Below are positions 11,355-62,551 of a DNA stretch of 64,000 nucleotides, piece after piece; within the stretch, counting starts at the first letter, position 1; every line of letters begins with the position of its first letter. The position numbers and the translations under genes were made by a program. This DNA comes from Salinisphaera orenii subsp. orenii MK-B5. GTDB taxonomy: Bacteria; Pseudomonadota; Gammaproteobacteria; Nevskiales; Salinisphaeraceae. The notes beneath the pieces are model-generated. The model made no database searches and was not told the DNA's origin. It saw nothing but the letters and a program-made list of their open reading frames with translations. Location: NCBI RefSeq assembly GCF_003788635.1, contig NZ_AYKH01000001.1, positions 124,001 through 188,000 on the forward strand. Reading direction: 5' to 3'.

Positions 11355-11381
11355 GGCGCGATTCTAGCAGCGCACCCGCGC

Positions 11382-12146
11382 TCAGCGCAGTGCCCGACGG
11401 CCGGTATCCATGGCCGCCCGCATCTCGCGCACGGCCTCGGACAGGCCCACGAACACCGCGCGCGCGACGATGGCGTGACCGATGTTGAGTTCAACGATTT
11501 CGCCGATCGCCGCGATCGCCTCCACGTTGTCGACGTGCAACCCGTGCCCGGCGTGGACCTCCATGCCGAGCCCGGCGGCGTGTTGCGCCGCGGTGGCGAT
11601 ACGGCGGCGCTGATCGTCGCGCTCGGCCGTGCCGCGGGCATCGGCGTAGGCGCCGGTGTGCAGTTCGATGTGGCGGGCCCCGGCCGCGGCAGCCGCCTCG
11701 ATCTGACGTGAATCGGGGTCGATGAACAGCGCCGCTCGGATGCCGGCGGTATGCAGTCGCCCGAGCGCCTCGGCCACGGCACCGACCTGACCGGCGATGT
11801 CCAGCCCGCCCTCGGTGGTCAGTTCGGCCCGCCGCTCGGGCACGAGACAGCAGTCGCGCGGATGGCCGTGCACGGCGATCTCGAGCATCTCGGCGGTCAT
11901 CGCCATCTCCAGGTTGACCGCGATGTCGGTACCCTGCAGCAGCGCCTCGACGTCGGCGTCCTGAATGTGGCGACGGTCCTCCCGCAGATGGACGGTGATG
12001 CTGTCCGCACCGGCGGCCACGGCCTGACGCGCGGCCTGCACCACATCGGGATAGACCGTGCCGCGCGCCTGCCGCAGGGTGGCGACATGGTCGACGTTGA
12101 CGCCCAGCCGCAGGGGCTTGGTTGACGTTCGGGTGCTTGCGTTCAA
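11382..12146 (-). CDS. pdxJ: Pyridoxine 5'-phosphate synthase PdxJ
   Basis: A 254-residue TIM-barrel enzyme that condenses aminoacetone-phosphate product and deoxyxylulose 5-phosphate into pyridoxine phosphate. The N-terminal signature [17 protein letters not shown], the central [13 protein letters not shown] and the C-terminal [23 protein letters not shown] are all present. The apparent start is TTG at 12146, sharing bases with the recO stop (TTGA); no ATG or GTG lies between it and the conserved core, so a weak coupled start is likely. Confidence 0.96.
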
Positions 12147-14067: not shown

Positions 14068-14762
14068 TGATCGTCCGCGTGAAGTCGTTCGAGCATGCGC
14101 CGGGCCGCGTCCTGTTCGGCCTTGCGGCGGCCGCCGCCCTCGCCGTCCACCGTGTCTCCGGTGTCGGCGAGATGACAGCGTGCCACGAAGTGCTGACAGT
14201 GGTCGGCGCCGGTGACGCTCACCAGGGTGTATTCCGGCCGCTCGCGGGCGCGCGCCTGCAGCCACTCCTGCAGCCGGGTCTTGGCGTCCTTGAGGCTGTC
14301 GGCGCTGGGCAGCGCGGCCAGGCGGCTGGCGTACAGCGCGTGCACGACCGTCTGGGCGGCGGCGAAACCGCCGTCGCAGTAGATCGCGCCCAGCACGGCC
14401 TCGACGCCGTCGGCCAGGATCGAGGCCCGCCGACGGCTGCCGTCGCGGTTCTCGCCCGGGCCCAGTACCAGCGCCTCGCCCAGATCGATCTCCTCGGCGA
14501 TCGCGGCGAGCGTGCGTTCGCGCACCAGCGCAGCGCGCAGCCGCGACAGATCACCCTCCGGCGCCTCGGGGCAGCGCTCGAACAGCGCCGCGGCGATGAC
14601 GAAGTTGAGCACGCCGTCGCCGAGGAATTCCAGCCTCTCGTTGTGATCGGAGGCCGCGCTCCGATGGGTGAGCGCGCGCGCGAGCAGCGCCGGACGCTCG
14701 AACGCGTAGTCCAGCCGGCGTTCCAGCCGGCCACCGGCGTCGCGCGGCGCGCTAGCGCTCAT
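14064..14762 (-). CDS. rnc: Ribonuclease III
   Basis: A 232-residue double-strand RNA endonuclease for rRNA and mRNA processing. The RNase III signature ERLEFLGDGVLNFVIA and the second acidic site in ADGVEAVLGAIYCDGG are intact, followed by a double-stranded RNA-binding domain (DAKTRLQEWLQARA ... RRKAEQDAARRML). The ATG at 14762 is preferred; a GTG two codons earlier (14768) is possible. It overlaps the DUF4845 gene end by 11 bases. Confidence 0.96.
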   Translation of the reverse strand: MSASAPRDAGGRLERRLDYAFERPALLARALTHRSAASDHNERLEFLGDGVLNFVIAAALFERCPEAPEGDLSRLRAALVRERTLAAIAEEIDLGEALVLGPGENRDGSRRRASILADGVEAVLGAIYCDGGFAAAQTVVHALYASRLAALPSADSLKDAKTRLQEWLQARARERPEYTLVSVTGADHCQHFVARCHLADTGDTVDGEGGGRRKAEQDAARRMLERLHADDQ

Positions 14763-36284: not shown

Positions 36285-36304
36285 CGCGCTGACTTATCCG
36301 GTTC

Positions 36305-36349
36305 TGGTCGGGGTAGCAGGATTTGAACCTGCGACCTTCTGCACCCCAT
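36305..36349 (-). repeat. Left attachment site (tRNA-Pro 3' fragment)
   Basis: 45 bases identical to 46742-46786, covering the CCA end, T arm and anticodon-stem 3' side of tRNA-Pro. The match stops abruptly at 36350. This is the displaced 3' end of the original gene; it cannot be a functional tRNA because the D arm and acceptor 5' strand are missing. Confidence 0.93.
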
Positions 36350-36447
36350 CCTTTCCAAGCAATGCATTCCAAGCTGTTGTCAGCACTACCGATGCTTATC
36401 TAACCGCCTGCGAACCCTACGAAACCTATTGCCGACCCTATGTAATC

Positions 36448-36505
36448 GTGTGACACTAAATGTCACCGAATACACGCCCGTTTGCTGACACTGTGCTGAC
36501 ACGGG
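36448..36505. promoter_or_regulatory. Candidate integrase arm-binding repeats
   Basis: Upstream of the integrase there is an inverted TGACA...TGTCA pair (36451-36469, reading tgacactaaatgtca) and two direct copies of GCTGACAC at 36484-36491 and 36494-36503. A near copy of the same doublet (GCTGACATAGCGCTGACACG) occurs at 46679-46698 beside the right attachment site. Repeats on both arms of the site are what a tyrosine integrase or excisionase would bind. This is inference. Confidence 0.5.
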
Positions 36506-36526
36506 CGACAACATGGGCCGTCTGTA

Positions 36527-37798
36527 ATGGGACACAGGTTAACCGATCGAGTCGTTAAGGCGCTCGAAACGCCAGACGGAAAATACACGATCGTATGGGA
36601 TGACAAGACGCCCGGCTTCGCCGTGCGCGTAACCAAAACGGGCGCCAAGTCTTTCATCCTGAATTACCGCACACATGGTCGGGAGCGCCGATACACCATC
36701 GGTAAATATCCCGCATGGTCGGTCGCCGCGGCGAGGGAACAAGCTGCAAAGCTGCGTCGGCAGATTGACCTGGGCGAAGACCCGCTCGGCGAGCGCAAGG
36801 CGGCGGCCGGCGAGCTGACGGTCGGCGACCTGATCGACCAGTACCTTGCCGAGCATGTCGCGCATAAGAATGCGGCCGGCACGGCGACCAACTACACGTA
36901 TTGGCTTAATAGCCTGGTCCGGCCCGATCTGGGTAAGCGCAAGATCACGGCAATCAAACCGGCCGACCTCCGGCGGATTCATCGCGACCTGAGCAAAGGC
37001 CGGCCGATTCTGGCGAACCGCACCATTAGCACGGTGCAGCGAATGTATAACTACGCCATCGCCGAAGACCTTTGCAGCGACAACCCGGCCAAGGGCATCG
37101 AGAAGAACCCCGAGGCCGGCCGCGAACGTTATCTGTCCGGGGACGAGCTGCGCCGGCTGTGCAAGGCACTGGCCGACTATCCCTATATGCACAAGGTGCG
37201 CCTGAGCCGCGAGGAAGCGCTCGCCACCGGCAGTAAATCCGCATGGCGGCGACGCGAGAATCCGCTGGCCGACAGAATCCAGTCGTGCAACGCGATCCGA
37301 TTATTGATGCTGACCGGCGCGCGCAAAGGCGAACTGCTATCCGCCAAGTGGGCCGACATAGACCTACAAGCCGGCGTCTGGATCAAGCCGGGGGCGACCA
37401 CGAAGCAACGAACAACGCATCGCGTCCCCCTGTCCGCGCCGGCAATGGAACTGCTCGCCGGCATCGAGCCATCGAGCGAATACGTGTTCCCCGGCTCCGG
37501 TGGTCAGCCACAGAAAGACCTGAAAAAGACTTGGGCGAGCGTCTGCGAGCTGGCCGAGATCGAGGGCGTGCGTATCCACGATCTACGCCACACCTACGCC
37601 GCACAACTGGTCAGCGCCGGGCTATCTCTACCGATCATCGGCGCCCTACTCGGCCATACGCAGGCCGACACAACGCAGCGCTACGCCCATCTAATGGATG
37701 ACCCCTTGCGAGAGGCAACAGAGCGCGTCGGCTCAATTGTTAGCGGCGCTGAAGGTGGCGAGCGCGCTGAGGTAGTGAATATCCGAGGGCGCACGTAA
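36527..37798 (+). CDS. int: Tyrosine integrase (P4-type)
   Basis: A 423-residue site-specific recombinase. The N-terminal DUF4102-type domain (LTDRVVKALETPDGKYTIVW ... TIGKYPAWSVAAAREQA) is followed by a SAM-like core-binding domain and the catalytic domain with Arg266 (LTGARKGELL), His351 and Arg354 (HDLRHTYA), a His in LLGHTQADTT and the nucleophile Tyr386 (RYAHL). It should insert and excise the island at tRNA-Pro. It lies 178 bases from the left attachment site and shares its last base with the next start (TAATG). Confidence 0.95.
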   Translation: MGHRLTDRVVKALETPDGKYTIVWDDKTPGFAVRVTKTGAKSFILNYRTHGRERRYTIGKYPAWSVAAAREQAAKLRRQIDLGEDPLGERKAAAGELTVGDLIDQYLAEHVAHKNAAGTATNYTYWLNSLVRPDLGKRKITAIKPADLRRIHRDLSKGRPILANRTISTVQRMYNYAIAEDLCSDNPAKGIEKNPEAGRERYLSGDELRRLCKALADYPYMHKVRLSREEALATGSKSAWRRRENPLADRIQSCNAIRLLMLTGARKGELLSAKWADIDLQAGVWIKPGATTKQRTTHRVPLSAPAMELLAGIEPSSEYVFPGSGGQPQKDLKKTWASVCELAEIEGVRIHDLRHTYAAQLVSAGLSLPIIGALLGHTQADTTQRYAHLMDDPLREATERVGSIVSGAEGGERAEVVNIRGRT

Positions 37799-38325
37799 TG
37801 GCGATAACACGAGAATCTCTAGACCGGCATCGCGGGTTGCCCGAAGGGCTCGTATTGATGCGCAAGTTTACTCGACAGGTATCCGCCGGCAATACACCCG
37901 ACGCCGATTTGCTGCTGGCCATCGCGGAGATGTTTCGCGATGTCGAGGCGGCAGCCGATAGCGGCAGCACCGATGCGCAGAGCGTTAAAAAGGCGATGAA
38001 ACTGGAAGCAGGACGAGGACGAAAAGCGTCTAATTCCGCTTCTGACACCTGGCCACAAAGATCATTCTGCATCGCGGTAGAGCGGAGACGACGCGAATAT
38101 GGCGAGTCCAAGCCGAAAGCGCTCGAGGCTGTATGTAATGAGCGATACGTTGCCGAGGCTACCGCTAAGCGCTGGCACGAAAAACATTGGAAGTCCGCGC
38201 AGTCTCATCTCGACCGCATGGCCGCGATTGAGCGCTGGGTAGATGAACAAGACAGCAAAACGCAAGCATGGATCGAATTGCTGGCCCGATCGCTCGGCGA
38301 CGCCGAAGGCGACCCCACGAAATAA
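37798..38325 (+). CDS. Hypothetical satellite protein
   Basis: A 175-residue soluble, basic, helix-rich protein with no domain I recognise. It contains a DADLLLAIAEMFRDVEAA segment near 40 and a possible HTH around ERYVAEATAKRWHEKHW (near 125). It starts within the integrase stop (TAATG), so it is translated with it. Its position next to int suggests a regulatory or accessory role, but a small-terminase role cannot be excluded. Confidence 0.7.
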   Translation: MAITRESLDRHRGLPEGLVLMRKFTRQVSAGNTPDADLLLAIAEMFRDVEAAADSGSTDAQSVKKAMKLEAGRGRKASNSASDTWPQRSFCIAVERRRREYGESKPKALEAVCNERYVAEATAKRWHEKHWKSAQSHLDRMAAIERWVDEQDSKTQAWIELLARSLGDAEGDPTK

Positions 38326-38362
38326 GTTATTTAATGGGGATCGGCATCGGATGACACCGACT

Positions 38363-38479
38363 GCAACCTGATATCCACATTCACCGGATTGGGTATCAGT
38401 ATTTAGGCGGTCGGGATCACACAACGATCCACCGGCCTCGCCGCAACCTGATACCCACATTCACAGCAACGGGTATCAG
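38363..38479. promoter_or_regulatory. Duplicated palindromic operator-like sites
   Basis: Two 37-bp near-identical repeats (38363-38399 and 38443-38479, 80 bases apart) lie just before the HTH gene at 38484. Each contains an inverted repeat: CTGATACCC/GGGTATCAG with a 14-base centre in the second copy, and one mismatch in the first. A third half-like CTGATAAC follows at about 38490. These look like binding sites for a dimeric regulator or the replication protein. Confidence 0.6.
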
Positions 38480-38483
38480 CACG

Positions 38484-38687
38484 ATGCAATCTGATAACAC
38501 CGGCATTCTCGCCGACTACTACACCCGCGACGAGTTGGCCGCCGAGCTTGGCCGCTGTCGCCGCACCCTTGCCCGCTGGGCATGGCTTCGCACCGGCCCG
38601 CGAATCACTCGCCTTCAAGGTCGCGTGCTCTACCACCGCGACGATGTAAAGGCATGGCTTCGTAGCCAAGCGGAGGGCGCGGCATGA
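38484..38687 (+). CDS. AlpA/MerR-type helix-turn-helix regulator
   Basis: A 67-residue DNA-binding protein of the winged-helix excisionase/AlpA type: YTRDELAAELGRCRRTLARWAWLRTGPRITRLQGRVLYHRDDVKAWL. AlpA-like proteins switch on P4-family satellites and PICIs by activating integrase or replication genes. It directly follows the duplicated operator sites and overlaps the next gene by 4 bases. Confidence 0.85.
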   Translation: MQSDNTGILADYYTRDELAAELGRCRRTLARWAWLRTGPRITRLQGRVLYHRDDVKAWLRSQAEGAA

Positions 38688-39199
38688 GCGGCGCCCAAAA
38701 AGAAAACCCCGGCGCGGCGGCAACCGCGACCGAGGCCAATAATGTCAGTACCCCTGACGGCTTCAAGCATACCGAATCGCCGATCAGCAAACTACTCCAT
38801 CGGCTCGACAAGGTGCGACAAACCGGCCGCGGGCAGCATCTCGCCCGCTGCCCTGCGCATGATGATGGCAGCCCAAGTCTGTCGGTACGGGAGAGCAGCG
38901 ACGGCACCGTGCTTATGCACTGTTTCGCGGGCTGTCCGGCCAGTGACGTGCTGGCGGCCGTGGGCATGGAGCTGGCCGAGCTGTTCCCCGATTACGGCCG
39001 GCGAGAGGCCCGCCCCAAGCGGCGCGGTGAACGGCGTATCAACCCGCTGGATACGCTGCGAGCTGTCGACCACGAGGTGCATATCGTCGCTGTTGTAGCG
39101 GCGGACATGCGAGCGCACCGGACGGTAGACGACGCCACCATGCGGCGGCTCACACTGGCGGTATCGCGCATTGGTGCGGCTCGGGGGCTGTATGAATAG
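38684..39199 (+). CDS. Zinc-ribbon primase-like protein
   Basis: A 171-residue protein with a CHC2-type zinc finger, ARCPAHDDGSPSLSVRESS ... VLMHCFAGCPASDVLAAVGM (about 55-95), as at the N-terminus of DNA primases and P4 alpha-like proteins. The catalytic TOPRIM or AEP core is absent, so it probably supplies the DNA-reading part for the primase-helicase encoded next, which it overlaps by 8 bases. Confidence 0.8.
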   Translation: MSGAQKENPGAAATATEANNVSTPDGFKHTESPISKLLHRLDKVRQTGRGQHLARCPAHDDGSPSLSVRESSDGTVLMHCFAGCPASDVLAAVGMELAELFPDYGRREARPKRRGERRINPLDTLRAVDHEVHIVAVVAADMRAHRTVDDATMRRLTLAVSRIGAARGLYE

Positions 39200-40604
39200 C
39201 AGCGTTCAGCTTGCCCGAATCAATACCGAGGCCGACAGGCAGCGCCAGGCGACCGCCAATCTCGACGCCAGCGATTTAAGTCACGATGCGCTCGCCAATC
39301 GGTTTTCTACCGAACGGCTGCGCGGTAACGGGCTATATGTCGCGCCTTGGAATCGATGGATGCTGTGGACCGGCGCGCGATGGGAGGCCGATGACCGATT
39401 GCGCCACATGACGATGGTGCGCGCGTTTTTGCGAGACGTGGCACAGGCGGCCAGCGACAAGGATGCGGATAACCTGCGATCCGACGCGATGCGGGCCGCT
39501 GTCGAGCGTATGGCGCGAAGCAACGAGGAAATCGCCGCGAGCGCGGACCAGTGGGACGCCGACCCGTGGCTGGTGGGCACGCCCGGCGGCACGGTGGATC
39601 TACGGACCGGGCAGCTGCGACCCGCACGGCGCGACGACTACATCACCAAGCTGACGGCGGTGACGCCCGCCGACACGGCGGACTGCCCGCAGTGGCGCGC
39701 GTTTCTCGCCCGCATCTTCCGGTCGCAGCCTGACATCGTGCCGTTTCTGCAGCGGGCGGCCGGCTATGCGCTGACCGGGCAGACCACCGAGCACAAACTG
39801 TTGTTCGCGTTCGGCACGGGCCGCAATGGCAAGGGCGTGTTTTTCAATACACTGGACGGGATCATTGGAGATTACTCGACTGTGGCCGCGTCGAGCACGT
39901 TTCTCGCTTCCGGCGCAGATTCGCACCCGACCGATCTGGCCAGCCTGGCGGGCGCGCGTCTTGTGACCGCCAGTGAACTACCACCCGGAAAGGCGTGGAA
40001 TGAAGCGCGAATCAAGTCACTGACTGGCGGCGATCCGATCACGGCACGGCGGATGCGGCAGGACTTCTTTACGTTCGAGCCGCAATTCACGCTGTTTATC
40101 GCGGGCAACCACATGCCGAGCTTTCGCGGCATAGACGAGGCCACCCGCGCCCGTGTGCTGATGATCCCGTTCGCCGAGACCATCCCGGCCGACGAGCGCG
40201 ACCCCGACCTGTCCGACAAGCTGCGGGCTGAATGGCCGGCGATACTGCGATGGGCGATCGATGGTGCGCTCGAATGGCAGGACGCTGGGCTGGCTCCCCC
40301 GCCCGCCGTGGATGCGGCCTCCGAGGAATACATGGACGACGAGGACGAGCTGGGGCAGTTCGTTGCCGAATGCCTGCACCCGGACGCCGAGGCGTTCGTG
40401 CTCAATCGCGAGCTATACCAGACCTTCAGGCAATGGAGCGAGGACCGCGGTATGCGATCGCCCTGGACGCAGCGGGCACTGACGCAGGCGCTTATCGAAC
40501 GCGGTTATGCGATCAAGCGGCGCAACAGCGGGCGCGGACTGGCTGGCTATCGCCTGATGCCATACGAATCAGCGCCTTACGCCAAGGCAACACGGGGATG
40601 GTGA
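39192..40604 (+). CDS. P4-type primase-helicase (D5-like, SF3)
   Basis: A 470-residue replication protein with the D5_N region (about 60-200), an SF3 helicase with Walker A FAFGTGRNGKGVFFNTL near 215-231, Walker B-like LVTASELPPGKAWNEARIKSLTGGD, and TLFIAGNHMPSFRGIDEATRAR. A C-terminal winged region follows (YQTFRQWSEDRG). It drives replication of satellites such as P4. The ATG at 39192 overlaps the previous gene; the first Met at 39171 lacks a ribosome site. Its stop lies inside the first iteron of the candidate origin. Confidence 0.9.
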   Translation: MNSSVQLARINTEADRQRQATANLDASDLSHDALANRFSTERLRGNGLYVAPWNRWMLWTGARWEADDRLRHMTMVRAFLRDVAQAASDKDADNLRSDAMRAAVERMARSNEEIAASADQWDADPWLVGTPGGTVDLRTGQLRPARRDDYITKLTAVTPADTADCPQWRAFLARIFRSQPDIVPFLQRAAGYALTGQTTEHKLLFAFGTGRNGKGVFFNTLDGIIGDYSTVAASSTFLASGADSHPTDLASLAGARLVTASELPPGKAWNEARIKSLTGGDPITARRMRQDFFTFEPQFTLFIAGNHMPSFRGIDEATRARVLMIPFAETIPADERDPDLSDKLRAEWPAILRWAIDGALEWQDAGLAPPPAVDAASEEYMDDEDELGQFVAECLHPDAEAFVLNRELYQTFRQWSEDRGMRSPWTQRALTQALIERGYAIKRRNSGRGLAGYRLMPYESAPYAKATRGW

Positions 40605-40705
40605 CGCAGGTGACGCAAGCTCCTATATCAGACGCATACGCGCGTGCGCGCGCGTGCGCATGGCGGGTTATATGGGGCAATCCGTCACCTGCGTCACTTG
40701 CGTCA
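40601..40705. other. Candidate replication origin of the satellite
   Basis: Immediately after the primase gene, TGACGCA units occur twice on the plus strand (40602-40608, 40611-40617) and twice on the minus strand (40690-40696, 40699-40705), with a degenerate fifth at 40683-40689. Between them is a 31-base strictly alternating purine-pyrimidine tract (40632-40662) followed by an AT-richer patch. Inverted iteron clusters around an easily opened segment, next to the replication gene, fit an origin (inference). Confidence 0.5.
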
Positions 40706-40786
40706 TGGTCCCAATACTCAGGTTTGGCCCTACCCGCGTTGTCGCCTGTCAAGTTTCGTTTTTATATTTAGCCGAGGCTAAGTTTC

Positions 40787-42301
40787 ATGTCTGACTCAAA
40801 AAAGGCGATCGACTTTATCCAGTCGCTGGAAATCCCCGAGGGGCCGAAGGCGGGCAAGCCGATCAAGCTGGCGAAGTTCCAGAAACAGTTCATCCGCGGC
40901 GCGCTCAAGAAATCGACAGCGGTGGCCGTGCTGTCTGTCGGGCGCGGCAACGGCAAGTCGGCACTGACGGCCGGCCTCGCGCTCGGCGAACTGCTGGGCG
41001 CCTGGGACACCCAGCCCCGGCGCGAAGTCCTGACCGCGGCGCGTACACGCGAGCAGGCCAAGATCGTGTGGCAATTCATGTTCGGGCTGGCGGCAACGCT
41101 CCCCGACGAGATACAGGATCAACTGCACTGGCGCCGCGCCCCGTACACCGAAGTCGAGTTCGACGGCGACGGCGGCGGGCATATCTGCAAATGCATCGCG
41201 GCCGATCCCAAGAACGCGCTCGGCACCGCGCCGACGCTCGCCATCATGGATGAGCGCGGACACTGGCCCAGCGACAAGGGCGACGACCTCGAGGCCGCGC
41301 TGTTGTCCGGCCTGGGCAAACGCGGCGGGCGCGCGGTCATCATCTCGACCAGCGCCAGCGACGACACACACAGCCTGTCGCAGTGGCTCGACGACCCGCC
41401 CCCCGGCACCTACGTTCAAGAGCACCGCCCGGCGCCCGGTCTGCCGGCCGACGACTTCGACAGCATCATCGAGGCCAACCCCGGCGCCAAGGCGGGCATC
41501 GGTTCCTCGCCCCAATGGCTCCAGGCACAGGCGCAACGGGCGATCGCCCGCGGCGGCTCCGCGCTGGCGTCTTTCCGGCTCTACAACCGCAACGAACGCA
41601 CGAGCGCCGAGAACCGCGACGTATTGTTGACCGTGGATGACTGGCTGGCTGCCGAGACCAGCGAGCTTCCCCCGCGCGAAGGCGGCGCCATCGTGGGCGT
41701 CGATCTGGGCGGCAGTGCCTCCATGTCCGCGGCGGCGCTCTACTGGCCGAATACCGGCCGGCTGGAAGCCGTGGGCGCCTTCCCGTCAAATCCGAGCCTC
41801 GCCGATCGCGGCCAGCGTGACGGCGTACGCGATCGCTATGTCGAGATGAAAGACCGCGATGAACTGCTGGTCATGGGCGAAAAGATCGTGCCGGCGCCGC
41901 AATTCCTGCAAGCGATCACCGACCGGCTGGATACCGCGCCCGTCACGTGCTTCGTGGCTGACCGCTACCGACAGAGCGAGTTCGAGGAAGCCTTGCAGGC
42001 CGCAGGCCTGCGCGTGCCCGTGGTCTGGCGCGGGATGGGCTTCAAGGACGGCGGCGAGGACTGCGAGCGATTCCGTAGCGCCGTATTCGACGGGCTGGTG
42101 CAGGTGCGGGCGTCCCTGCTGCTGCGATCCGCCTTTGCCGATGCCGTGACCCTGCGCGACCCGGCCAACAACATGAAGCTGGCCAAGGCGCGCTCGACGG
42201 GGCGAATTGATGCGGCGGCAGCGACGATCCTGGCGGTGGCCGAGGGACGCCGGCGCAGTGCGCGGCCGGCCTATCGTGCCCGCTCGGCGCTATGGGCGTG
42301 A
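40787..42301 (+). CDS. terL: Phage terminase large subunit
   Basis: A 504-residue DNA-packaging motor. Walker A is VGRGNGKSAL (about 51-60), Walker B TLAIMDERG (about 140), and the nuclease domain begins with VGVDLGGSAS (about 305) and ends with DAAAATILAVAEG. It is of the HK97-type terminase group. No small subunit was recognised nearby. It overlaps the HNH gene by 10 bases. Confidence 0.9.
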   Translation: MSDSKKAIDFIQSLEIPEGPKAGKPIKLAKFQKQFIRGALKKSTAVAVLSVGRGNGKSALTAGLALGELLGAWDTQPRREVLTAARTREQAKIVWQFMFGLAATLPDEIQDQLHWRRAPYTEVEFDGDGGGHICKCIAADPKNALGTAPTLAIMDERGHWPSDKGDDLEAALLSGLGKRGGRAVIISTSASDDTHSLSQWLDDPPPGTYVQEHRPAPGLPADDFDSIIEANPGAKAGIGSSPQWLQAQAQRAIARGGSALASFRLYNRNERTSAENRDVLLTVDDWLAAETSELPPREGGAIVGVDLGGSASMSAAALYWPNTGRLEAVGAFPSNPSLADRGQRDGVRDRYVEMKDRDELLVMGEKIVPAPQFLQAITDRLDTAPVTCFVADRYRQSEFEEALQAAGLRVPVVWRGMGFKDGGEDCERFRSAVFDGLVQVRASLLLRSAFADAVTLRDPANNMKLAKARSTGRIDAAAATILAVAEGRRRSARPAYRARSALWA

Positions 42302-42597
42302 GGAAATATCGCCCCAATCGCCCCAGCGAACTGGCCCAGCGCGATCGACGCTGGCCGGGCCTACGGCTGGCCGCGCTCCGGCGCGACGATTGGCGTTGTG
42401 TTCAATGCGCCAGCAAGCGCCGGCTCGAAGTGGATCACGTCGAGAGCGTGCGCAAGCGGCCCGACCTGGCGTTCGACCTGACGAACCTGCAAACGCTCTG
42501 CGCCGTATGCCACGGAAAGAAAACCCGTTTCGAGATGACCGGGCGCGAGCCGAACCCAGAGCTTGACAAATGGCGAGAACTTATAACCAACACTTGA
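42292..42597 (+). CDS. HNH endonuclease (packaging type)
   Basis: A 101-residue protein with an HNH core: CVQCASKRRLEVDHVESVRKR, then DLTNLQTLCAVCHGKKT, giving two CxxC pairs and the catalytic His. Such nucleases are encoded beside terminases in HK97-like phages and are needed for cos cleavage. The start lies inside terL (coupled). Confidence 0.88.
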   Translation: MGVRKYRPNRPSELAQRDRRWPGLRLAALRRDDWRCVQCASKRRLEVDHVESVRKRPDLAFDLTNLQTLCAVCHGKKTRFEMTGREPNPELDKWRELITNT

Positions 42598-42623
42598 ACA
42601 GTTGTTTTATTGTATGGGATACT
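42594..42623 (+). promoter_or_regulatory. Possible promoter before capsid gene
   Basis: TTGAAC (42594-42599), 18-base spacer, GATACT (42618-42623), about 32 bases before the capsid ATG at 42655, in an AT-rich patch unusual for this window. It could give extra transcription of the head genes. Confidence 0.4.
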
Positions 42624-42654
42624 GTACGGGTATACACCACTCGCGAGTATCCGT

Positions 42655-43908
42655 ATGTTGCAGTCGCAGAAGATCGCCCGCCGGCAGTCCGAGATCCGGC
42701 AGAACCTGGCCGAACTGGCCGCCAACGACGCCCCGACCGAAGAGCAGCGCAGCCAGATGGACGCGCTCGACGGTGAGTATCAGGCCAACGAATCGCGCTA
42801 TCGCGCCAGCCTGATCGCCGAGGACGACGAGCGGCGCGACGCCGACCGCGACCTAGAAACCCGCGAGGCGGGCGAATGGGACAAGCTGATCGCGCAGTAC
42901 GAGATGCGCCAGGCCGCGCTGCACCTCGACGAGGGCCGACAGTTCGACGGCGCCACCGCCGAGGTCGTGCAGGAGTTGCGACAGGCCGGCGGCTATCGCG
43001 GCGTACCCGTACCGTTCGCGGCTTTCGAGACCCGCGCCGGTGAGACCACCTCCGCGACCGTGCCCGATCCGGTTGCCACCATGCCGATGATCGACCGGCT
43101 GTTCCCGCAGAGCGTGGCCGGCGCGATGGGCGCGCAGATGGTCAACGTCACGGCCGGCGGCATCGAATATCCGGTGAGCACCTCACAGGTGACCGCGGGC
43201 TGGGCCTCGACCGAGGGCGGCGACGTGGCCGGCCCGACCGAGTTCTCGACCGTCGACCGGCCGCTGGCGCCCGACCACACGCTCGGCATTCAGATGCGGC
43301 TGACCCGCAAGGCGATGAAGCAGTCGGCGGGCATCGAGGCCGCGATCCGGCGCGACATGCAGGGCGCCATGCAGGTCGAGATCGACAAGGCGGTATTCCA
43401 GGGTAGTGGCAGCAACGGCCAGCCGGCCGGCGTCGTCGCCCAAGCCGCCGACTACGGTATCGACTCGACCGCCGTGGACGCAGCGGCCAGTTACGGCGCC
43501 TTCCGCAAGGCGGTGACCGAGTTCATGCTCGCCAACGCGGCCACCGGCCCCGGCAGCGTCCGGGCGCTGATCCGCCCGGAAATCTGGGACGCGATGGACG
43601 ACGTGATTTTCGACGCCGGCAGCGGCGTAACCGAATACGACCGCCTCGCGGCGAAGCTGGGCAGCGTCACGCAGTCGCACAACGCACTGGCCGCCCCCAG
43701 CGGCAGCACCCCGGCGAGCAAGGCGCTGTTGACCACCAACGCGGGCGGTCAGTCGCCGATCTTCGTGGCGACGTGGGGCGCGGTCGATTTGATCCGCGAT
43801 CCGTATTCCGATGCCCAGAGCGGCGGGCTGCGGCTGACCGGGCTGGTCACGATGGACGTATCCATTAGTCGCGCCGAACAACTGCGCGTGCTGTCGGGCT
43901 TGCAGTAA
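42655..43908 (+). CDS. HK97-type major capsid protein
   Basis: A 417-residue capsid protein. Residues about 1-75 form a charged coiled-coil delta domain (RRQSEIRQNLAELAAN ...) expected to be cleaved by the protease. The body shows the HK97-fold pattern with ETTSATVPDPVATMPMIDRL and QPAGVV, and a final segment DVSISRAEQLRVLSGLQ. It forms the procapsid shell. Its stop overlaps the protease start (TAATG). It is unusual in preceding the protease gene. Confidence 0.92.
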   Translation: MLQSQKIARRQSEIRQNLAELAANDAPTEEQRSQMDALDGEYQANESRYRASLIAEDDERRDADRDLETREAGEWDKLIAQYEMRQAALHLDEGRQFDGATAEVVQELRQAGGYRGVPVPFAAFETRAGETTSATVPDPVATMPMIDRLFPQSVAGAMGAQMVNVTAGGIEYPVSTSQVTAGWASTEGGDVAGPTEFSTVDRPLAPDHTLGIQMRLTRKAMKQSAGIEAAIRRDMQGAMQVEIDKAVFQGSGSNGQPAGVVAQAADYGIDSTAVDAAASYGAFRKAVTEFMLANAATGPGSVRALIRPEIWDAMDDVIFDAGSGVTEYDRLAAKLGSVTQSHNALAAPSGSTPASKALLTTNAGGQSPIFVATWGAVDLIRDPYSDAQSGGLRLTGLVTMDVSISRAEQLRVLSGLQ

Positions 43909-44453
43909 TGCTATTCGCGCCGATCAACGGCGGTCTGGAGCTACGCGCAGAGGCGGACGGCTCGCACACGATCGCGGGCCGATTCCCCTACGGTACGCTG
44001 GCCGAGCTGGGGCGCGGGCGTCGCGAGACATTCGCCCCCGGCGCCTTCACGTTGCAGGACGACGTGCATTTACTGGCCGGCCACGACTACAACCGGCCGC
44101 TGGCGTCGCGTCGGTCCGGTTCGCTGACGCTGACCGATGCCGACGATGGGCTGGCGTTCGAGGCGCGTATCAGTGCCGACGTGGCGGATACATCGCACGG
44201 CCGCGACACCCTGGCGCTGGTGCGTGCGGGCTTGTCCGTGGGCCTGTCCCCCGGCTTTCGTGTTCGCCCCAATGGTGAGCGCGTTGAGCGCCGCTCTGGC
44301 GGCCTGCTGCGCACGGTGCACGGTGCCGATCTGTTCGAGCTATCCGTTGTCACGCGGCCAGCCTACGACAGCGCGCAGGTGGAAGCCCGATCGTGGCAGC
44401 CGGAAAACCCGGCCGGTTCCCGTTCGGTTCCGGCGGCTTGGAGGTGGCGCTAA
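43908..44453 (+). CDS. Prohead protease (HK97 family)
   Basis: A 181-residue serine protease of the herpesvirus-assemblin/HK97 gp4 type: GRFPYGTLAELGRGRRETFAPGAF, the catalytic His in LLAGHDYNRPLA, the Ser in RAGLSVGLSPGF and the VHGADLFELSVVTRPAY strand. It processes the capsid delta domain. Linked by TAATG overlaps to the capsid and adaptor genes. Confidence 0.9.
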   Translation: MLFAPINGGLELRAEADGSHTIAGRFPYGTLAELGRGRRETFAPGAFTLQDDVHLLAGHDYNRPLASRRSGSLTLTDADDGLAFEARISADVADTSHGRDTLALVRAGLSVGLSPGFRVRPNGERVERRSGGLLRTVHGADLFELSVVTRPAYDSAQVEARSWQPENPAGSRSVPAAWRWR

Positions 44454-44968
44454 TGCCTGTCGAGATCGTCCGCGAAGATGAAGACCTGCCGAGCGACTAT
44501 CCGGCAGAGCCTGCCGATCTGAGCCCCGCCGCCCAAGCGATCGACGCGACGGCGGTCTGGGCGCGCATCGAACAGTGGATCATCCGGCGCTGGCCGGCGC
44601 GTGAAGTCCAGTGGATTACCGAGGGCGAAGGCTACTTCGTGCCCCGGCTCCAGCCGGCCGAGCTCACCAAGGCCGAGCAGTGGAACGGCAAGGACTGGAT
44701 CGAAGTCCAGCCCGACCCGGCGCCGATGGGTCTGTACCTGAATCACGGCACGCACCGGCTGACTTATCAGGTCGGCGAGGCCGAGCCCCCGGCGCCCGTC
44801 ATGCGTGCTTATATCCGCCTGGCGGAGTATTGGGCCGAAGTCCAGCCCGAGGGCGGCGCCACGTCGGTATCCGATGGCGATTACTCGTTCACCCGATCCG
44901 CCAATGCGGTCGCGCGCGCGTTGCAGTATTCCGGCGCGGCCGATCTGCTGCGGCGCTACCGGTCATGA
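44453..44968 (+). CDS. Head-tail adaptor-like protein
   Basis: A 171-residue acidic protein between protease and head-closure protein. The C-terminal part (VMRAYIRLAEYWAEV, then SANAVARALQYSGAADLLRRYR) resembles gp6-like connector proteins whose helices clamp the portal. The central segment (AREVQWITEGEGYFVPRLQP) is strand-rich. Assignment rests on position, size and pattern. The ATG at 44453 sits in the previous stop. Confidence 0.65.
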   Translation: MPVEIVREDEDLPSDYPAEPADLSPAAQAIDATAVWARIEQWIIRRWPAREVQWITEGEGYFVPRLQPAELTKAEQWNGKDWIEVQPDPAPMGLYLNHGTHRLTYQVGEAEPPAPVMRAYIRLAEYWAEVQPEGGATSVSDGDYSFTRSANAVARALQYSGAADLLRRYRS

Positions 44969-45288
44969 GCGCAGGCTACTTCAAGCGCACCTATCCGGTC
45001 TGGCGCAAGACCACGACCGACGGCCCCTATGGTGAGCCTGTCGAGGAATGGAACAAGATTGCCGACGCACCGGGGCGGGCCTATCCGGCGCGCATGAATG
45101 ACACGTTCGCCGCCCAGCAACAGGCCGGGATCGTGACATGGACGTTCGCCACCCCGGCGGATACCGACATACAGACCAGCGACCAAGTGCGCTTCGATGG
45201 GCGCACGCTCAACGTGCTGGCGGTATCGGTCACGTCCCGAGGCGATCGCATCGAGGCACTGGCCGAAGAACAACAGGCGGGATCATGA
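44965..45288 (+). CDS. Head closure (head-tail joining) protein
   Basis: A 107-residue beta-rich protein, MSAGYFKRTYPVWRKTTTDG, with strands VTWTFATPADTDIQTSDQVRFDGRTLNVLAVS. This is the SPP1 gp16/HK97 gp7-type head-tail joining fold. It would give the tail-less satellite a docking surface for a helper's tail. The ATG overlaps the adaptor stop by 4 bases, and its own stop overlaps the portal start. Confidence 0.75.
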   Translation: MSAGYFKRTYPVWRKTTTDGPYGEPVEEWNKIADAPGRAYPARMNDTFAAQQQAGIVTWTFATPADTDIQTSDQVRFDGRTLNVLAVSVTSRGDRIEALAEEQQAGS

Positions 45289-46355
45289 GCATTCTCGATC
45301 GTTTTCGACGCACCAAGGCCCCCGACGAAACGCGCAACTACACGTCGCAGATGATGGCGTCGCGGTTCGTGGAGATCACCGGCCAACGCGGCATCGCCGA
45401 TCTGACGGCGACGGTGCAGGGCTGTATCAGTCTGTGGGAGTCCGGCCTGTCCCTGGCCGACGTGAACGGCACGGATGCGCTGACACCGCGCGATCTGACG
45501 CTGATGGCCCGGCAACTGGGCCTGAAAGGCGAAAGCGTGTTTCTCATGGGCGACGACCGGCTGATTCCGGTCTCACAGTGGGATCTTAAGACTCGAGACG
45601 GTATCCCGACCGCCTACCGGCTGACCTTGCCCGACGTGGCCGGGGGGCGATCGTTCACGGCTCTGGCCGGCGAAGTGCTGCATATCCGCGTCGGCTCGAC
45701 CGTTGAAGCCCCGTGGCGTGGCACGGCCCCGTTGATGCGCGCCAGTCTCACCGCCGGGCTGCTGCATGCCGTCGAGTCCGCGCTTTCCGACGTATACGCC
45801 GATAGTCCGCTCGGTAGCCAAGTGGTGCCGATGCCCGAAGACCCGAATATCAGCAACGAACAACTGGCCCGGTCATTCCGAGGCCAGCGGGGCCGCGTAC
45901 TGCTGCGCGAATCCACCGCGGTCACGGCAGCCGGCGGCCCGGCCCCGACGACCGACTGGCGCCCGTCCGACCTGTCGCCCGATCTATCGCGCACCATGAG
46001 CACCGAGAGCATGGCCGCAGCCCGCCAAGCCATTCTCGGCGTCTACGGCGTCCTGCCGAGCCTGATGGATGCACAAGCCGCCGGGCCGTCTGTACGCGAA
46101 GGCCAGCGGCATCTCGCACAGTGGCAACTGCAACCGATCGCCACGCTGATCGCCCAGGAGGCCAGCGAGAAGCTGGGCACGGCCGTATCGCTGGATACCC
46201 TGCGGCCGACGCAAGCCTACGATGCCGGCGGCCGTGCGCGCACGCTCGCGGGCGTCATCGAGGGCATGGCGGCTGCGAAGGAGGCCGGCTTGTCCGATGA
46301 GCAGGTAACGGCCGCGCTCAACTTCGCGGGTATCACTGACCGGGCTTATCCCTAG
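45285..46355 (+). CDS. Portal protein (HK97 family)
   Basis: A 356-residue portal with the family pattern: QGCISLWESGLSLADVNG at the start, GVYGVLPSLMDAQAAG and a long helix near the C-terminus (LAQWQLQPIATLIAQEASEKLG). It is short for a portal (usually about 400 or more), possibly lacking part of the clip or crown. The ATG at 45285 is chosen by the 4-base overlap. It is last in the head operon, where phages usually place it first. Confidence 0.88.
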   Translation: MSILDRFRRTKAPDETRNYTSQMMASRFVEITGQRGIADLTATVQGCISLWESGLSLADVNGTDALTPRDLTLMARQLGLKGESVFLMGDDRLIPVSQWDLKTRDGIPTAYRLTLPDVAGGRSFTALAGEVLHIRVGSTVEAPWRGTAPLMRASLTAGLLHAVESALSDVYADSPLGSQVVPMPEDPNISNEQLARSFRGQRGRVLLRESTAVTAAGGPAPTTDWRPSDLSPDLSRTMSTESMAAARQAILGVYGVLPSLMDAQAAGPSVREGQRHLAQWQLQPIATLIAQEASEKLGTAVSLDTLRPTQAYDAGGRARTLAGVIEGMAAAKEAGLSDEQVTAALNFAGITDRAYP

Positions 46356-46486
46356 ACTCCCCCGAGCCAGACGGGCCGGCGCTTTCCCGGTAGGTGGCGC
46401 TGGATAATCTGGACGCGGCTTTGTCGATCTGTGCCGCGTACGGAAATCATCGACAGCCGAAGGCGTTTAAGGCGCGCACGATCGGC

Positions 46487-46517
46487 AGCCCCTACGCCAT
46501 GCGCTGGGGGCTTTTTT
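46487..46517 (+). terminator. Terminator after the satellite head operon
   Basis: AGCCCC (46487-46492) pairs with GGGGCT (46507-46512), with an inner CGC/GCG pair around CAT, followed by TTTTTT. It closes the plus-strand operon before the repeat pair. Confidence 0.7.
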
Positions 46518-46532
46518 GTGTCTACCGGTAGA

Positions 46533-46621
46533 GGTTCGCCCGTGCGCGCGGGGAGCGCAGCGAGAATAGTGGGACAACTTGTCCCACTAATCCGGTTCGC
46601 CCGTGCGCGCGGGGAGCGCAG
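46533..46621 (-). CRISPR. Possible one-spacer type I-E-like mini-array
   Basis: Two identical 28-bp repeats (46533-46560, 46594-46621) beginning GGTTCGCCCGTGCGCGCGGG, separated by 33 bases, giving a 61-bp period. On the minus strand the repeat reads ...CTCCCCGCGCGCACGGGCG then AACCG, close to the type I-E consensus, including the AACCG handle; the 46533 copy has AACCTC, like a degenerate terminal repeat. The spacer is dominated by a perfect 23-bp palindrome (46567-46589). There are no cas genes in the window. A repeat-flanked operator or recombination site is the alternative. Confidence 0.5.
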
Positions 46622-46698
46622 GGTTATAGAGCCTTGTCGGCACCGTCGAGGCTGCATGCTGATACGCCATGCCGAACTGCTGACATAGCGCTGACACG

Positions 46699-46720
46699 AA
46701 AAACCCGGCGCTTGGCCGGG
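46699..46720 (-). terminator. Satellite-borne replacement terminator for tRNA-Pro
   Basis: On the minus strand CCCGGC/GCCGGG with a 5-base loop followed by TTTTT, 22 bases downstream of the tRNA CCA end. It lies within the island, so the element brings its own terminator to the tRNA it disrupts. Confidence 0.7.
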
Positions 46721-46741
46721 CTCTGTAAGTTCCTGTTTTTA

Positions 46742-46786
46742 TGGTCGGGGTAGCAGGATTTGAACCTGCGACCTTCTGCACCCCAT
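46742..46786 (-). repeat. Right attachment site (inside tRNA-Pro)
   Basis: 45 bases identical to 36305-36349. Identity ends at 46787 in the anticodon loop region, the common crossover zone for integrases that use tRNA genes. Confidence 0.92.
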
Positions 46787-46818
46787 GCAGACGCGCTACC
46801 AAGCTGCGCCATACCCCG
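46742..46818 (-). tRNA. tRNA-Pro(GGG)
   Basis: 77 bases including encoded CCA. The acceptor stem CGGGGTA/TACCCCG is followed by A-CCA, D arm GCGC...GCGC, and an anticodon stem TCTGC/GCAGA enclosing the loop ATGGGGT with anticodon GGG (reads CCC). The 3' 45 bases are duplicated at 36305-36349. The island restores the gene, so the tRNA stays functional. Confidence 0.95.
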
Positions 46819-47165
46819 ATTACAGAGCGCGCATGATACCAGAACTCGCCCCTGCGTCGACCATCTCGCGCCGGCGTCTGCCAGCACTTCATGCGAACGC
46901 CGCGTTTAAGAGTGCATGTCGCATGCGGCAAGGTGTGGAGTCGCCGATCGTGGCGAGTCCCGATCGAGACTGGCAACGCCGCAGCACTCCCATGGTCAGG
47001 TTTCATGGGCAGCCCAAGCCGAATGGCCAAGCGCTGTTGTCGGCAAGCCAGCGTTGTCGCACGCTGGCGCAGAACAAGTGCGCGGCGTGCACGGTGCCTC
47101 GTCTCGCCGCCCATCATCACTTCTCACGAAGCGATTGGCGCGGGCTCACGTGCAATGGGGCAGCC
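46819..47165. other. Gap between tRNA-Pro and merR
   Basis: 347 bases. Apart from the tRNA promoter at its left end I see no gene with plausible codon use and no RNA structure. Short direct repeats such as CGCATGCGGCA are not organised. Confidence 0.4.
46833..46861 (-). promoter_or_regulatory. Promoter of tRNA-Pro
   Basis: On the minus strand GTCGAC, 17 bases, TATCAT, then a GC-rich GCGCGC discriminator typical of growth-controlled stable RNA genes, ending about 14 bases before the tRNA. Confidence 0.55.
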
Positions 47166-59964: not shown

Positions 59965-60149
59965 CGCTCGTAATACTCGACCATGCGGTCATAGACGCCG
60001 CGTATGGCGCGCTCCCGCACGTCGTCGGATTCAAAGGATTCATCCGCGATCTTGACGATCGCCAAGCCCAATATGGCGGCGGCGCTTTCGGGTTTCTCGG
60101 TGCGCAGCAGCTCCCGTGCAATCCAGCTCGCCCGCTGTTCGTACATCAC
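59955..60149 (-). CDS. Small phage protein after the tape measure
   Basis: A 64-residue charged helical protein (MMYEQRASWIARELL ... RGVYDRMVEYYERNK). It overlaps the tape-measure stop by 4 bases (ATGA), so it is translated with it. No known domain. Position suggests a tail accessory factor. Confidence 0.7.
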   Translation of the reverse strand: MMYEQRASWIARELLRTEKPESAAAILGLAIVKIADESFESDDVRERAIRGVYDRMVEYYERNK

Positions 60150-62551
60150 GCCGCTCCCTTGCGTTTGAGGTTGAAAATGTTCTGGAAACTGCGACTCATC
60201 GGGCCACGCTGGGCCATGTCGCTAACGACCACGCTCGTGATCTGATTCTCAAGCGTCTTCGCAAGGCTCTGCTGATCGCGTTGACGTTCTTCGCCCGTCT
60301 TGCCTTCGGCTTCGTTATAAGTCACGTACTGATTCACGACCGGGCCGCTATTCGAGCCACCTTGAGGAATCGCATGGTTGGGAATGACAGTCGTCGGCGT
60401 ACGCGGGACGATCAATTCCGGGCCGTTCTCGCCGACGATCGAACCCTTCCCGATAGGCGGATTGCCGCCCTTGGCGAAGAAGCCGCCGAACTGAGACTGG
60501 ACGCCCGTGCCGATGCCGCCGATGCCCGCGTCGGCAAACGACGTGCCGATGCTGGCCGAGCTGGGGCCAAACATGCTGCCGAACATGCCGCCGAGCGATT
60601 TGCCAGCGGCGCCCAGCAGGCCGCCGAGCTTGCCGTCGGACGCGAAGGAGTCACCCAGCAGCGCCCGGTTGAGCTGCGCCGCCTGCGCCTGCGCGGCCAT
60701 TTCGAGCAGCATATTGCTCCAGCTCTCGAGAATGCCGTCGAAGTTGCCCGCCAGGGTCTGCTTGAGCGTGCGGCCGAGCGTGTCCTGCACGTTACGCGCC
60801 GCCTGCTGGGCGAACTCACTCATGCGGTTGTATTGCTCGCCCGTCATCTGGGCCACTGCCTTGGCGCGCTCGGACTGGATACGGGCCAGCACCTCGGCCT
60901 TTTTGCCCGCATCGTTGTAGTAGAGCCGCGCATACTCGGCGAGCTTGTCGTACTTGGCCTTCACGGACTCGACCGTGCGGTTGCCCTGGTTGAATTGATC
61001 CAGGGCATCGCGGGCGCGATCGGACATGCTGTAGATTTCGGGCCGCTTCGGAACCTCGACGCGCTGAACGGACGTGCCGGAGGCGGTGCCGCCGGTCGGA
61101 GTCGTCGGCGTGGGCTTCGGCGGGCCACCGCCAAAGTCGGCCATATCAATGTCGCCGGACTTGAGCTGCTGGAGGCGTTTCCGCTCCTTGTATAGCCGCT
61201 GGCTGATATCGGCGAGCTTCGATTGATTCTCGATCGCCTGCCGGTCGTAATCGTTCGCCAGCTTCTGGCTGGTCGCCTGATTCGTGGTGGCGTCGGTCAC
61301 GAGCCGCCGCGACATGGCGACCTTTTCCATCTCCTGCGCCTGCTGCGAGACCTGTTCCTGCAGCTTCGTGACGACTTCCTGCTGCTGGAATATCGCGTTC
61401 TGGCGCTGTGCCTTGGTCAGCTCACCCCACTTGCGGGCGAGCGTGTCGATCTTGTTGGCCTGTTCGTTGACCTCGGAGCGGACATCGTTGGAGCTGCTGA
61501 TCCACTGATACGCGGCACTGGCGGCCAGCAACAGCACACCCGCCGGCCCGCCGAGCAGCGCCAGAGCACCCTTGAGGCCGCGTATCGCCACGGCCGCCGT
61601 TGAGGCCGCCACACCCGCGCTGCGGACCGCTGCGGCGGCACTCCGGGCGGCCAGAGCGAAGGCCGACCAGCCGACGTTCACCACGGCCGCGGTCAGGCGC
61701 GCACCGATGAGCGTTGCGGCGACCTCGACCACACGGATGATGCGGTCCATGTTCTCCACAACCGCCTGCGTGGCGCGGGTAAACGCTTTGGCGAAGGACT
61801 GGATTGTCGGGGCGAGCTCGACGATCAGGGCATTGATCACGCCCGTGATCGAGGCGCCCATCTGATCGAACGACCGGGCCGCGTCGGTGATCCGGTTGGT
61901 CTCGAACGCAGACAGGGCCGTATTCATCTCGACGGCTTCGCCGGCAAATCGCCGGAGCTCCGTCGCGCCCTCCCGTAGCAGCGGCAACAGCGCCGAGCTT
62001 TCAGAGGCCAGGCTCTCGAGGATGTAGACCTGTTGTGCCTTGGGCAGCCCCTTGATGGCCTCGCCGATGCGCGTGAGCTGATCGACGATACTCAGCTTTT
62101 GCAGTTTCTCGGCATCAAGGCCGATCTGCTGCAGGACTTCGTAGCCTTCGCCCGACTGCGACATGGCCGCTTCGCCGATGCGCTCCTGCAGATCCTTGAC
62201 CAGCCCCAGCGCGTCGTCGGCCTGACCGCCCACCATCGTTATCGCGTACTGGAGCTGCTGGAACTCGCCGGTTGCCACACCCGTGGCCTGCGCCATGGCG
62301 TTGGTACGCTGGACGGCCTGCGCCTGCTGGGACGCGAAGTAACCCAGCGCCGTGGCTGCGCCGCCCACGACCGTGCCGAGACGGGCGAACGTCCGCCCGA
62401 GTTGCCGCGCATCATCCGCGACCTTGCGAAAGTCACGCCGCGCCCGACGGGCAAAGCGTTCCATCTCGCTTTCGGCGCCTTTCAGATTCCGCGTGAACCC
62501 GCCCGTGCGGGCGATCAGGTCGATGCTGAGTGTGCCGAGACTGCCCGCCAT
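60146..62551 (-). CDS. Tail tape measure protein
   Basis: An 801-residue protein that sets tail length and is ejected with DNA. It has the typical N-terminus (LSIDLIARTGGFTRNLKGAE), a coiled coil (about 22-60), hydrophobic segments (about 305-345), a long charged coiled coil (about 370-460) and the lambda gpH-like C-terminal motif FFAKGGNPPIGKGSIVGENG. By the family rule of about 0.15 nm per residue the tail would be near 120 nm (estimate). It follows the gpGT end by one base. Confidence 0.92.
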   Translation of the reverse strand: MAGSLGTLSIDLIARTGGFTRNLKGAESEMERFARRARRDFRKVADDARQLGRTFARLGTVVGGAATALGYFASQQAQAVQRTNAMAQATGVATGEFQQLQYAITMVGGQADDALGLVKDLQERIGEAAMSQSGEGYEVLQQIGLDAEKLQKLSIVDQLTRIGEAIKGLPKAQQVYILESLASESSALLPLLREGATELRRFAGEAVEMNTALSAFETNRITDAARSFDQMGASITGVINALIVELAPTIQSFAKAFTRATQAVVENMDRIIRVVEVAATLIGARLTAAVVNVGWSAFALAARSAAAAVRSAGVAASTAAVAIRGLKGALALLGGPAGVLLLAASAAYQWISSSNDVRSEVNEQANKIDTLARKWGELTKAQRQNAIFQQQEVVTKLQEQVSQQAQEMEKVAMSRRLVTDATTNQATSQKLANDYDRQAIENQSKLADISQRLYKERKRLQQLKSGDIDMADFGGGPPKPTPTTPTGGTASGTSVQRVEVPKRPEIYSMSDRARDALDQFNQGNRTVESVKAKYDKLAEYARLYYNDAGKKAEVLARIQSERAKAVAQMTGEQYNRMSEFAQQAARNVQDTLGRTLKQTLAGNFDGILESWSNMLLEMAAQAQAAQLNRALLGDSFASDGKLGGLLGAAGKSLGGMFGSMFGPSSASIGTSFADAGIGGIGTGVQSQFGGFFAKGGNPPIGKGSIVGENGPELIVPRTPTTVIPNHAIPQGGSNSGPVVNQYVTYNEAEGKTGEERQRDQQSLAKTLENQITSVVVSDMAQRGPMSRSFQNIFNLKRKGAA

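Follow-up and report, generated by a model that had tools for sequence, protein, structure and literature searches.

A 10.4-kb island of Salinisphaera orenii with a phage head module and no recognised tail gene, probably a tail-borrowing satellite

In the genome of Salinisphaera orenii subsp. orenii MK-B5 (3.67 Mb in 44 contigs), a compact island carrying phage head genes occupies positions 36305-46786 (10.4 kb) of the window, by which we mean the whole 64,000-nucleotide stretch analysed (contig NZ_AYKH01000001.1, positions 124,001 to 188,000 of the forward strand). The island is set in a tRNA-Pro gene and flanked by a 48-bp direct repeat (36302-36349 and 46739-46786, identical at 47 of 48 positions, spacing 10,437 bp), the right copy of which overlaps the 3' part of tRNA-Pro(GGG). 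The sharp ends and the size of ca. 10.4 kb claimed by an earlier reading of the bare letters (the sequence-only reading) are thereby borne out. There are 12 open reading frames (ORFs), the assigned genes all lie on the + strand, and no interrupted gene was seen. They run in the order listed here, from the integrase through a putative switch and replication genes to the terminase large subunit (TerL) and then the head genes:

36305-36349, no strand: attL, an incomplete copy of the tRNA-Pro 3' end, within the 48-bp direct repeat
36527-37798, + strand: tyrosine integrase, 423 aa (PF00589 E 1.7e-25, PF13356, PF22022; phrog_1 E 4.9e-72)
37798-38325, + strand: orf175, no assigned function, helical in a low-confidence prediction (best match IcmW, E 0.018, below the cut-off)
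38484-38687, + strand: AlpA/excisionase-type helix-turn-helix (HTH) protein, 67 aa (PF12728, HTH_17, E 4.8e-9; phrog_66 excisionase/regulator E 2.4e-9)
38684-39199, + strand: CHC2-type zinc-finger protein, 171 aa, corresponding to a primase N-terminus (phrog_6088 positions 4-92)
39192-40604, + strand: P4/D5-type replicative helicase, 470 aa (PF08706, D5_N, and PF19263; phrog_6088 positions 333-763)
40787-42301, + strand: TerL, 504 aa (PF03354, PF20441; phrog_9 E 3e-52)
42292-42597, + strand: HNH endonuclease, 101 aa (PF01844; phrog_144)
42655-43908, + strand: HK97-fold major capsid protein, 417 aa (PF05065 E 1.6e-12)
43908-44453, + strand: prohead serine protease (S78), 181 aa (PF04586 E 5.9e-24)
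44453-44968, + strand: head-tail adaptor-like connector, 171 aa (weak phrog_4931, E 0.011)
44965-45288, + strand: head closure protein, 107 aa (PF05521 E 1.1e-10; phrog_25)
45285-46355, + strand: portal, 356 aa, closing the head operon (PF04860 40.1 bits, cut-off 39.1; phrog_12)
46742-46818, - strand: tRNA-Pro(GGG), from ARAGORN and the repeat; its 3' part, 46742-46786, is attR

The integrase and AlpA-type switch proposed earlier are recovered by these profiles (PF00589 and phrog_1; HTH_17 and phrog_66), as is the head set of TerL, HNH, capsid, protease, closure and portal, the adaptor being matched weakly and so named because of its position and of relatives at the same place in four related loci (L004, L005, L011, L012). 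PF05930 (AlpA) itself does not match the 67-aa HTH protein. The capsid start at 42655 is the probable one, with Met there in four aligned relatives; upstream, a TTG at 42610 would be an alternative start in the same open frame. What had been called a P4-type primase stands in part: the zinc finger and the helicase both match phrog_6088, but they are two separate ORFs, and the profile between positions 92 and 333 is unmatched. The CHC2 zinc finger scores 23.1 bits, slightly below its cut-off of 24.9, and this protein is 50% identical across residues 32-142 to its counterpart in a distant locus (L258, see below); the helicase was found as a single copy in the genome. Altogether, the head module covers procapsid (capsid, protease, portal), packaging (TerL, HNH) and neck (adaptor, closure), and ends before the tail.

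No tail or lysis family was matched by any of the 12 ORFs at E 0.1 with Pfam and PHROG-type profiles, as had been claimed from the letters; a complete prophage would have both modules inside its att sites. At the same threshold there was also no convincing family match for a terminase small subunit (TerS). The AlpA-type HTH protein gives a weak match to a TerS profile (phrog_141, E 0.049), and the HNH protein matches the TerS-labelled phrog_4581, a profile containing an HNH part. We did not adopt orf175 as TerS: it has no match in PHROGs and no relative in the viral contigs searched, and its single-sequence structure model (mean pLDDT 68.5) is a low-confidence fold.

The insertion site appears empty in four of eight congeneric genomes examined (G004, G005, G006, and G008), where gluQ lies ~120-200 bp from tRNA-Pro, a gap too short for the island; in the other four gluQ fell outside the stretch taken. 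Among 194 genomes around the host, the capsid search matched six, three of them close (the own genome, G007, and G014) and three distant (27-38% identity). G007, from the same genus, holds a related island on a 13,211-bp contig, and Salinisphaera sp. UBA6602 (L199) has an identical TerL. IMG/VR yielded 131 relatives from 189 stretches with a TerL alignment and 328 from 575 stretches with a capsid alignment, and we used the best 80 of each. A five-row TerL alignment found 83 relatives from 185 stretches of genome_contigs, the best 80 of which comprise 71 loci at 48-71% identity (L184-L254) and nine at 28-30%; a scan of genome_contigs with a single capsid sequence found nothing. Judging by the genus names in record titles, most of the 71 close loci belong to Rhodobacterales (Paracoccus, Roseovarius, Thioclava, Ruegeria, Rhodobacter, and others); Pusillimonas, Methylocystis, Hoeflea, Ponticaulis, Salinisphaera, and a Comamonadaceae bacterium are represented too.

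Taking the top-scoring match per gene at most 6 kb from the capsid, 64 of the 71 genome loci and 137 of 155 others, together 201 of 226, carry the complete core of five genes, arranged TerL-HNH-capsid-protease-portal. The set is partly redundant: some contigs are duplicated, L012 and L199 come from the same contig, and the single contig behind L105 and L114 repeats the L011 locus. The remaining seven genome loci and 18 others (25/226) lack at least one core gene, and none violates the order. This arrangement had been called unusual, which holds against HK97-type phages but not within the island's own family, where it is the rule. The search for the same gene set in related genomes, suggested by the sequence-only reading, was thus answered positively. 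That reading would have been contradicted by closest relatives that are full prophages with tails; instead, those relatives whose ends could be bounded are islands of ~10 kb with the same head module and with no tail family among the PHROG families listed. A 42-kb viral contig of the nearest relative, G014, was considered as a tailed phage and rejected: the island there adjoins what reads, with genes named by eye, as a P2-like prophage, apparently distinct from the island and equipped with head genes of its own (L264/L265; G194 10001-41996).

Several arrangements within the family are worth recording. One 15.7-kb viral contig (L037) has two family head modules in tandem, and a 1.58-Mb plasmid of Pseudorhodobacter turbinis (NZ_CP039965; W01, L033) carries two family TerL genes and a third, distant one. 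In three loci (L194, L219, and L225) a tmRNA gene adjoins the integrase, suggesting tmRNA as integration site.

An automatic search for tRNA sequence repeated across TerL bounded 36 of the 71 close loci, at many different tRNA sites. For 33 of them the mean size is 10,233 bp (SD, standard deviation, 498; range 9,317-11,731), leaving out L213 (16.2 kb, containing a second integrase), L218 (4.3 kb), and L231 (6.6 kb); the repeat is at least 38 bp long in 20 of the 33 and 15-29 bp in 13, where single cases are weaker. The ORFs of these relatives were picked by our own codon-composition rule, which is fallible. Clustering of the non-core ORFs from the 36 gave 128 groups whose representatives match 81 PHROG families, and the 25 families listed, which include no tail family, concern replication, integration, regulation, partition, or a connector, or have no assigned function. 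In the 33 elements, no non-core ORF picked exceeds 529 aa. Variation is seen around the core: a gp6-like adaptor lies upstream of TerL in 20 elements, the head closure stands between TerL and HNH in several relatives, and the G007 island has a Neck1-type tail completion gene. The replication genes vary as well, from the zinc finger and D5 helicase of the island to primase/PrimPol-type, DnaB-like, helicase-primase, and O-like initiators in relatives.

TerL, capsid, and portal of the island have no close relative among the phage records searched. Against 50,697 phage records TerL matched 99, with full-length identity of 28% and partial identity up to 34%; the capsid matched 37, at 24-28% identity among the 20 matches listed; and the portal had no match at E 0.01. 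In a 63-row TerL tree, made of 45 of the 118 rows collected for the island's family (type B), nine phage rows and the nine distant loci (type A), the 45 type-B rows form one side of a branch with support 99/98, and the type-A rows are placed among phages. A 58-row tree without the five longest rows gives this split 100/100 support and keeps only four phage or prophage rows; both trees sample few phages.

Five of the nine type-A loci (L257, L258, and L261-L263), from Vreelandella, Xanthomonas, Rhodoferax, and another proteobacterium, have capsid and protease before TerL, in the order capsid-protease-portal-HNH-TerS-like-TerL (portal confirmed in L258, L261, and L262), and a satellite-like reading of type A covers these five. 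The TerS-like ORF scores 19.9 bits in L261 and 22.1 bits in L258 against Terminase_4 (cut-off 24.7), with no match in L262. Two of the nine were bounded, at 10.8 and 11.2 kb (L257 and L262).

The island is not the only head module of its kind in its own genome. Its capsid has two further relatives there, 86% and 62% identical, on the short contigs C30 (L004) and C31 (L005), each with TerL, HNH, capsid, protease, connector, and a portal that is truncated where the contig stops; close to both ends, the pair have stretches in common at 92-93% identity. The ends of contigs C1 (L029) and C23 (L028) are 97% identical over 277 bp, each with an integrase, and C23 additionally carries an AlpA-type gene. 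Together, C30, C31, and the C1/C23 ends are probably two more islands broken by assembly. A PrimPol at the shared C1/C23 end was dropped, the match falling on a short ORF (73283-73489 in window numbering).

Some 11 kb to the right of the island lies a second element (L298), bounded by a 45-bp repeat of tRNA-Asn and running from 57604 to ~75552 in window numbering, past the window end (17.9 kb). It holds an integrase, PrimPol, terminase, protease, capsid, portal, closure, and a tail module of siphovirus tail tube type, with major tail protein, tail completion, assembly chaperone, and an 801-aa tape measure (60146-62551). The PF10145 tape measure probe had no match in the genome, a false negative, since this tape measure is of another family. 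Of the tail tip there is only a 120-aa protein matching positions 132-210 of the 1565-position tail fibre J profile, no lysis gene was recognised among the ORFs looked at, and the element looks like a truncated tailed prophage. Four phrog_9-type TerL genes were matched in the genome, three of type B and that of the tRNA-Asn element, whose head closure, like that of the island, matches phrog_25.

We consider, at a probability of roughly 0.8, that the island is a phage satellite which makes its own head and borrows its tail, resembling the capsid-forming phage-inducible chromosomal islands (cf-PICIs) but a distinct variant. The att sites, the empty sites, the family of islands built on the same plan, and the distinct TerL lineage all support a satellite. 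The island would integrate into tRNA-Pro by its own integrase, the AlpA-type protein may govern switching and excision, and the zinc-finger/helicase pair would replicate the island. After induction, a small HK97-type head would be built from the island's capsid, protease, portal, and connectors and filled by its TerL and HNH nuclease, possibly by cos-type packaging; the tail, and probably lysis too, would be supplied by a co-resident or infecting tailed phage.

According to published accounts, cf-PICIs are integrated elements with integrase, alpA, replication genes, TerL, HNH, capsid, protease, portal, and connectors but no tail (PMC10690885, PMC10448857), and they make their own heads and take tails (PMC10690885, PMC10448857, PMC11389934, PMC13230959); the prototype is EcCIEDL933, with helpers HK106/HK446 (PMC11389934). 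The island has counterparts of these genes, with an AlpA-type gene in place of alpA and an adaptor matched weakly, and likewise no recognised tail gene. As regards the Pri-Rep replication initiator of cf-PICIs, its zinc finger and helicase are two ORFs that leave the middle of the profile unmatched. It differs in having no recognisable TerS, in its order TerL-HNH-capsid-protease-connectors-portal, in a family size of ~10.2 kb against an average of 14 kb stated for cf-PICIs in PMC10803314, and in the many family members in Rhodobacterales, which are absent from the hosts listed there. Its family TerL is also a separate lineage from the phages and type-A islands compared. Judging by its genes, the island would work as cf-PICIs do; we do not assert formal membership, no TerS having been found.

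Other satellites are alike in some respects. Type-A islands have an integrase, replication and head genes, AlpA (PF05930) in L261, and no tail gene by eye, but differ in gene order, in their TerS-like ORF, and in a TerL only 28-30% identical. The Streptomyces phage satellites MulchRoom and MiniFlayer encode packaging and capsid genes of their own, as the island does, and MulchRoom has an integrase, also as in the island, and a tail like that of its helper; they differ in having no obvious replication genes, virulent helpers, and direct terminal repeats. The tail-less, head-coding Vibrio satellite-plasmids named cf-PISP, called cf-PICI by SatelliteFinder, are, according to PMC13230959, which uses 900 published cf-PICI capsids, episomal, with parA/repA and no integrase, and their capsid falls within the Gammaproteobacterial cf-PICIs. 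P4-like satellites share the tyrosine integrase, the AlpA-type switch, and the D5/P4-type helicase, but P4 is packaged by the P2 terminase into P2-made capsids, and such elements would have no capsid or terminase of their own, whereas the island has its own TerL and capsid. Titles and abstract openings in the literature gave no report of such satellites from Rhodobacterales or Salinisphaera, which is no claim of their absence from print.

One alternative is a decayed prophage that has lost its tail, lysis, and regulatory genes. A truncated prophage with tape measure and J fragment does lie nearby, in the tRNA-Asn element, and three of the 36 bounded relatives deviate in size, two of them shortened; but the island keeps its integrase and att sites, none of its genes is seen interrupted, and a tail-less set of nearly constant size recurs across many genera, so that we regard decay as improbable. 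It is still harder to see the island as a domesticated device for making heads, a gene transfer agent (GTA) for instance, rather than a selfish satellite. GTAs are common in Rhodobacterales, where many of the relatives are found, but GTAs carry tails and are not known to have an integrase. The integrase, AlpA-type switch, and replication genes of the island, the three head modules in its genome, the many tRNA sites among relatives, and the empty site in 4 of 8 congeners point to a mobile element and make domestication very improbable.

A narrower proposal keeps the tail-borrowing satellite and makes the neighbouring tRNA-Asn element its tail donor, the two forming a resident pair. In favour of this, the element has a tail tube module, a closure that matches the same family as the island's, and the one phrog_9-type TerL found in the genome outside the type-B modules, but most of its tail tip is missing, and we think the pairing unlikely. 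For the same reason no intact resident helper of phrog_9 type was found, the only other such TerL lying in a truncated prophage, and this is one of several points that count against a head-making, tail-borrowing satellite. A TerS was not recognised among the island ORFs; the island is known from its genes, and induction, excision, particles, and helper are all presumed; the absence of tails in relatives rests on the 25 listed of 81 matched PHROG families; the 63-row tree joined long branches, with a program warning; and no complete phage of this TerL lineage was seen, which the sampling of sequenced phages may partly explain.

If the satellite interpretation is true, head-making, tail-borrowing satellites reach a separate lineage in many Rhodobacterales and Salinisphaera, and the same lineage occurs in some other Alpha- and Betaproteobacteria. 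Distinct head genes combined with a steady 10-kb size would make these islands a test case for the origin of capsid-making satellites, and also for how one head accepts tails from unrelated phages. Their IMG/VR entries are short viral contigs that could pass for prophage fragments. More tentatively, the family could be an independent radiation of capsid-making satellites, with an old TerL/portal lineage of its own that has no known complete phage, a fixed 10-kb genome, no conventional TerS and, in some members, a hairpin array as packaging or replication signal, a possibility to which we give rather less than even odds.

Two repeat features of the island may bear on replication or packaging:

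40601-40706, no strand: GTGACGCA iteron cluster, direct and inverted, candidate replication origin, between helicase and TerL
46533-46621, no strand: hairpin array, a 28-nt GC-rich repeat in two identical copies at 61-bp spacing, after the portal

With at most one mismatch, GTGACGCANGTGACGCA has three matches in the window against 0.01 expected, and the GTGACGCA cluster may be a replication origin. At the centre of the hairpin array is a 23-nt perfect palindrome, TAGTGGGACAA-C-TTGTCCCACTA (46567-46589), and the array folds with z -6.4. The 28-nt repeat occurs nowhere else in the genome at up to three mismatches. Arrays of similar build, with other repeats and palindromes, a period of 60-61 bp, and a place after the head genes or close to the element end, were found in L235 (at least six units, 11381-11800), L076 (6009-6390), L087 (7814-7903), L037 (8242-8450), and the type-A L261 (12124-12214), and L254 has a single palindrome (14355-14377) near the element end with GC-rich motifs either side. 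Among the 36 bounded relatives and the window, perfect palindromes with arms of at least 10 were counted within the 700 bp opposite the integrase in three elements (L235, L254, and the window), with six in middle parts and none at integrase ends; the array is uncommon among bounded relatives.

Many of the palindromes vary in sequence yet keep complementarity, which argues for a hairpin, in DNA or RNA, rather than a fixed protein site. Some units depart from this, among them three of the seven tested in L235. Of eight sequences folded, one (L087) was little better than shuffles (z -1.6). The array might be a packaging site, an origin, or a regulatory RNA. A cas-less type I-E CRISPR mini-array was rejected, the would-be spacer being a perfect palindrome, like a number of those in L235, L076, L087, and L261; Cse1 was found in one of six genomes searched (G201, of L263) and in none of those of the window, L235, and L261. 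Against this rejection, three of seven L235 spacers tested and the one of L037 are not palindromic beyond shuffles. Repeat arrays of 61 bp are also present in the IMG/VR contigs L301, L302, L303, and L306; by eye the spacers of L301 are palindromic, and those of L306 (a 37.7-kb contig) are non-palindromic, like a real CRISPR array. Just beyond the island, at 46885-47147, lies a dispersed repeat of ~260 bp with at least 19 further places in the genome and many in several congeners.

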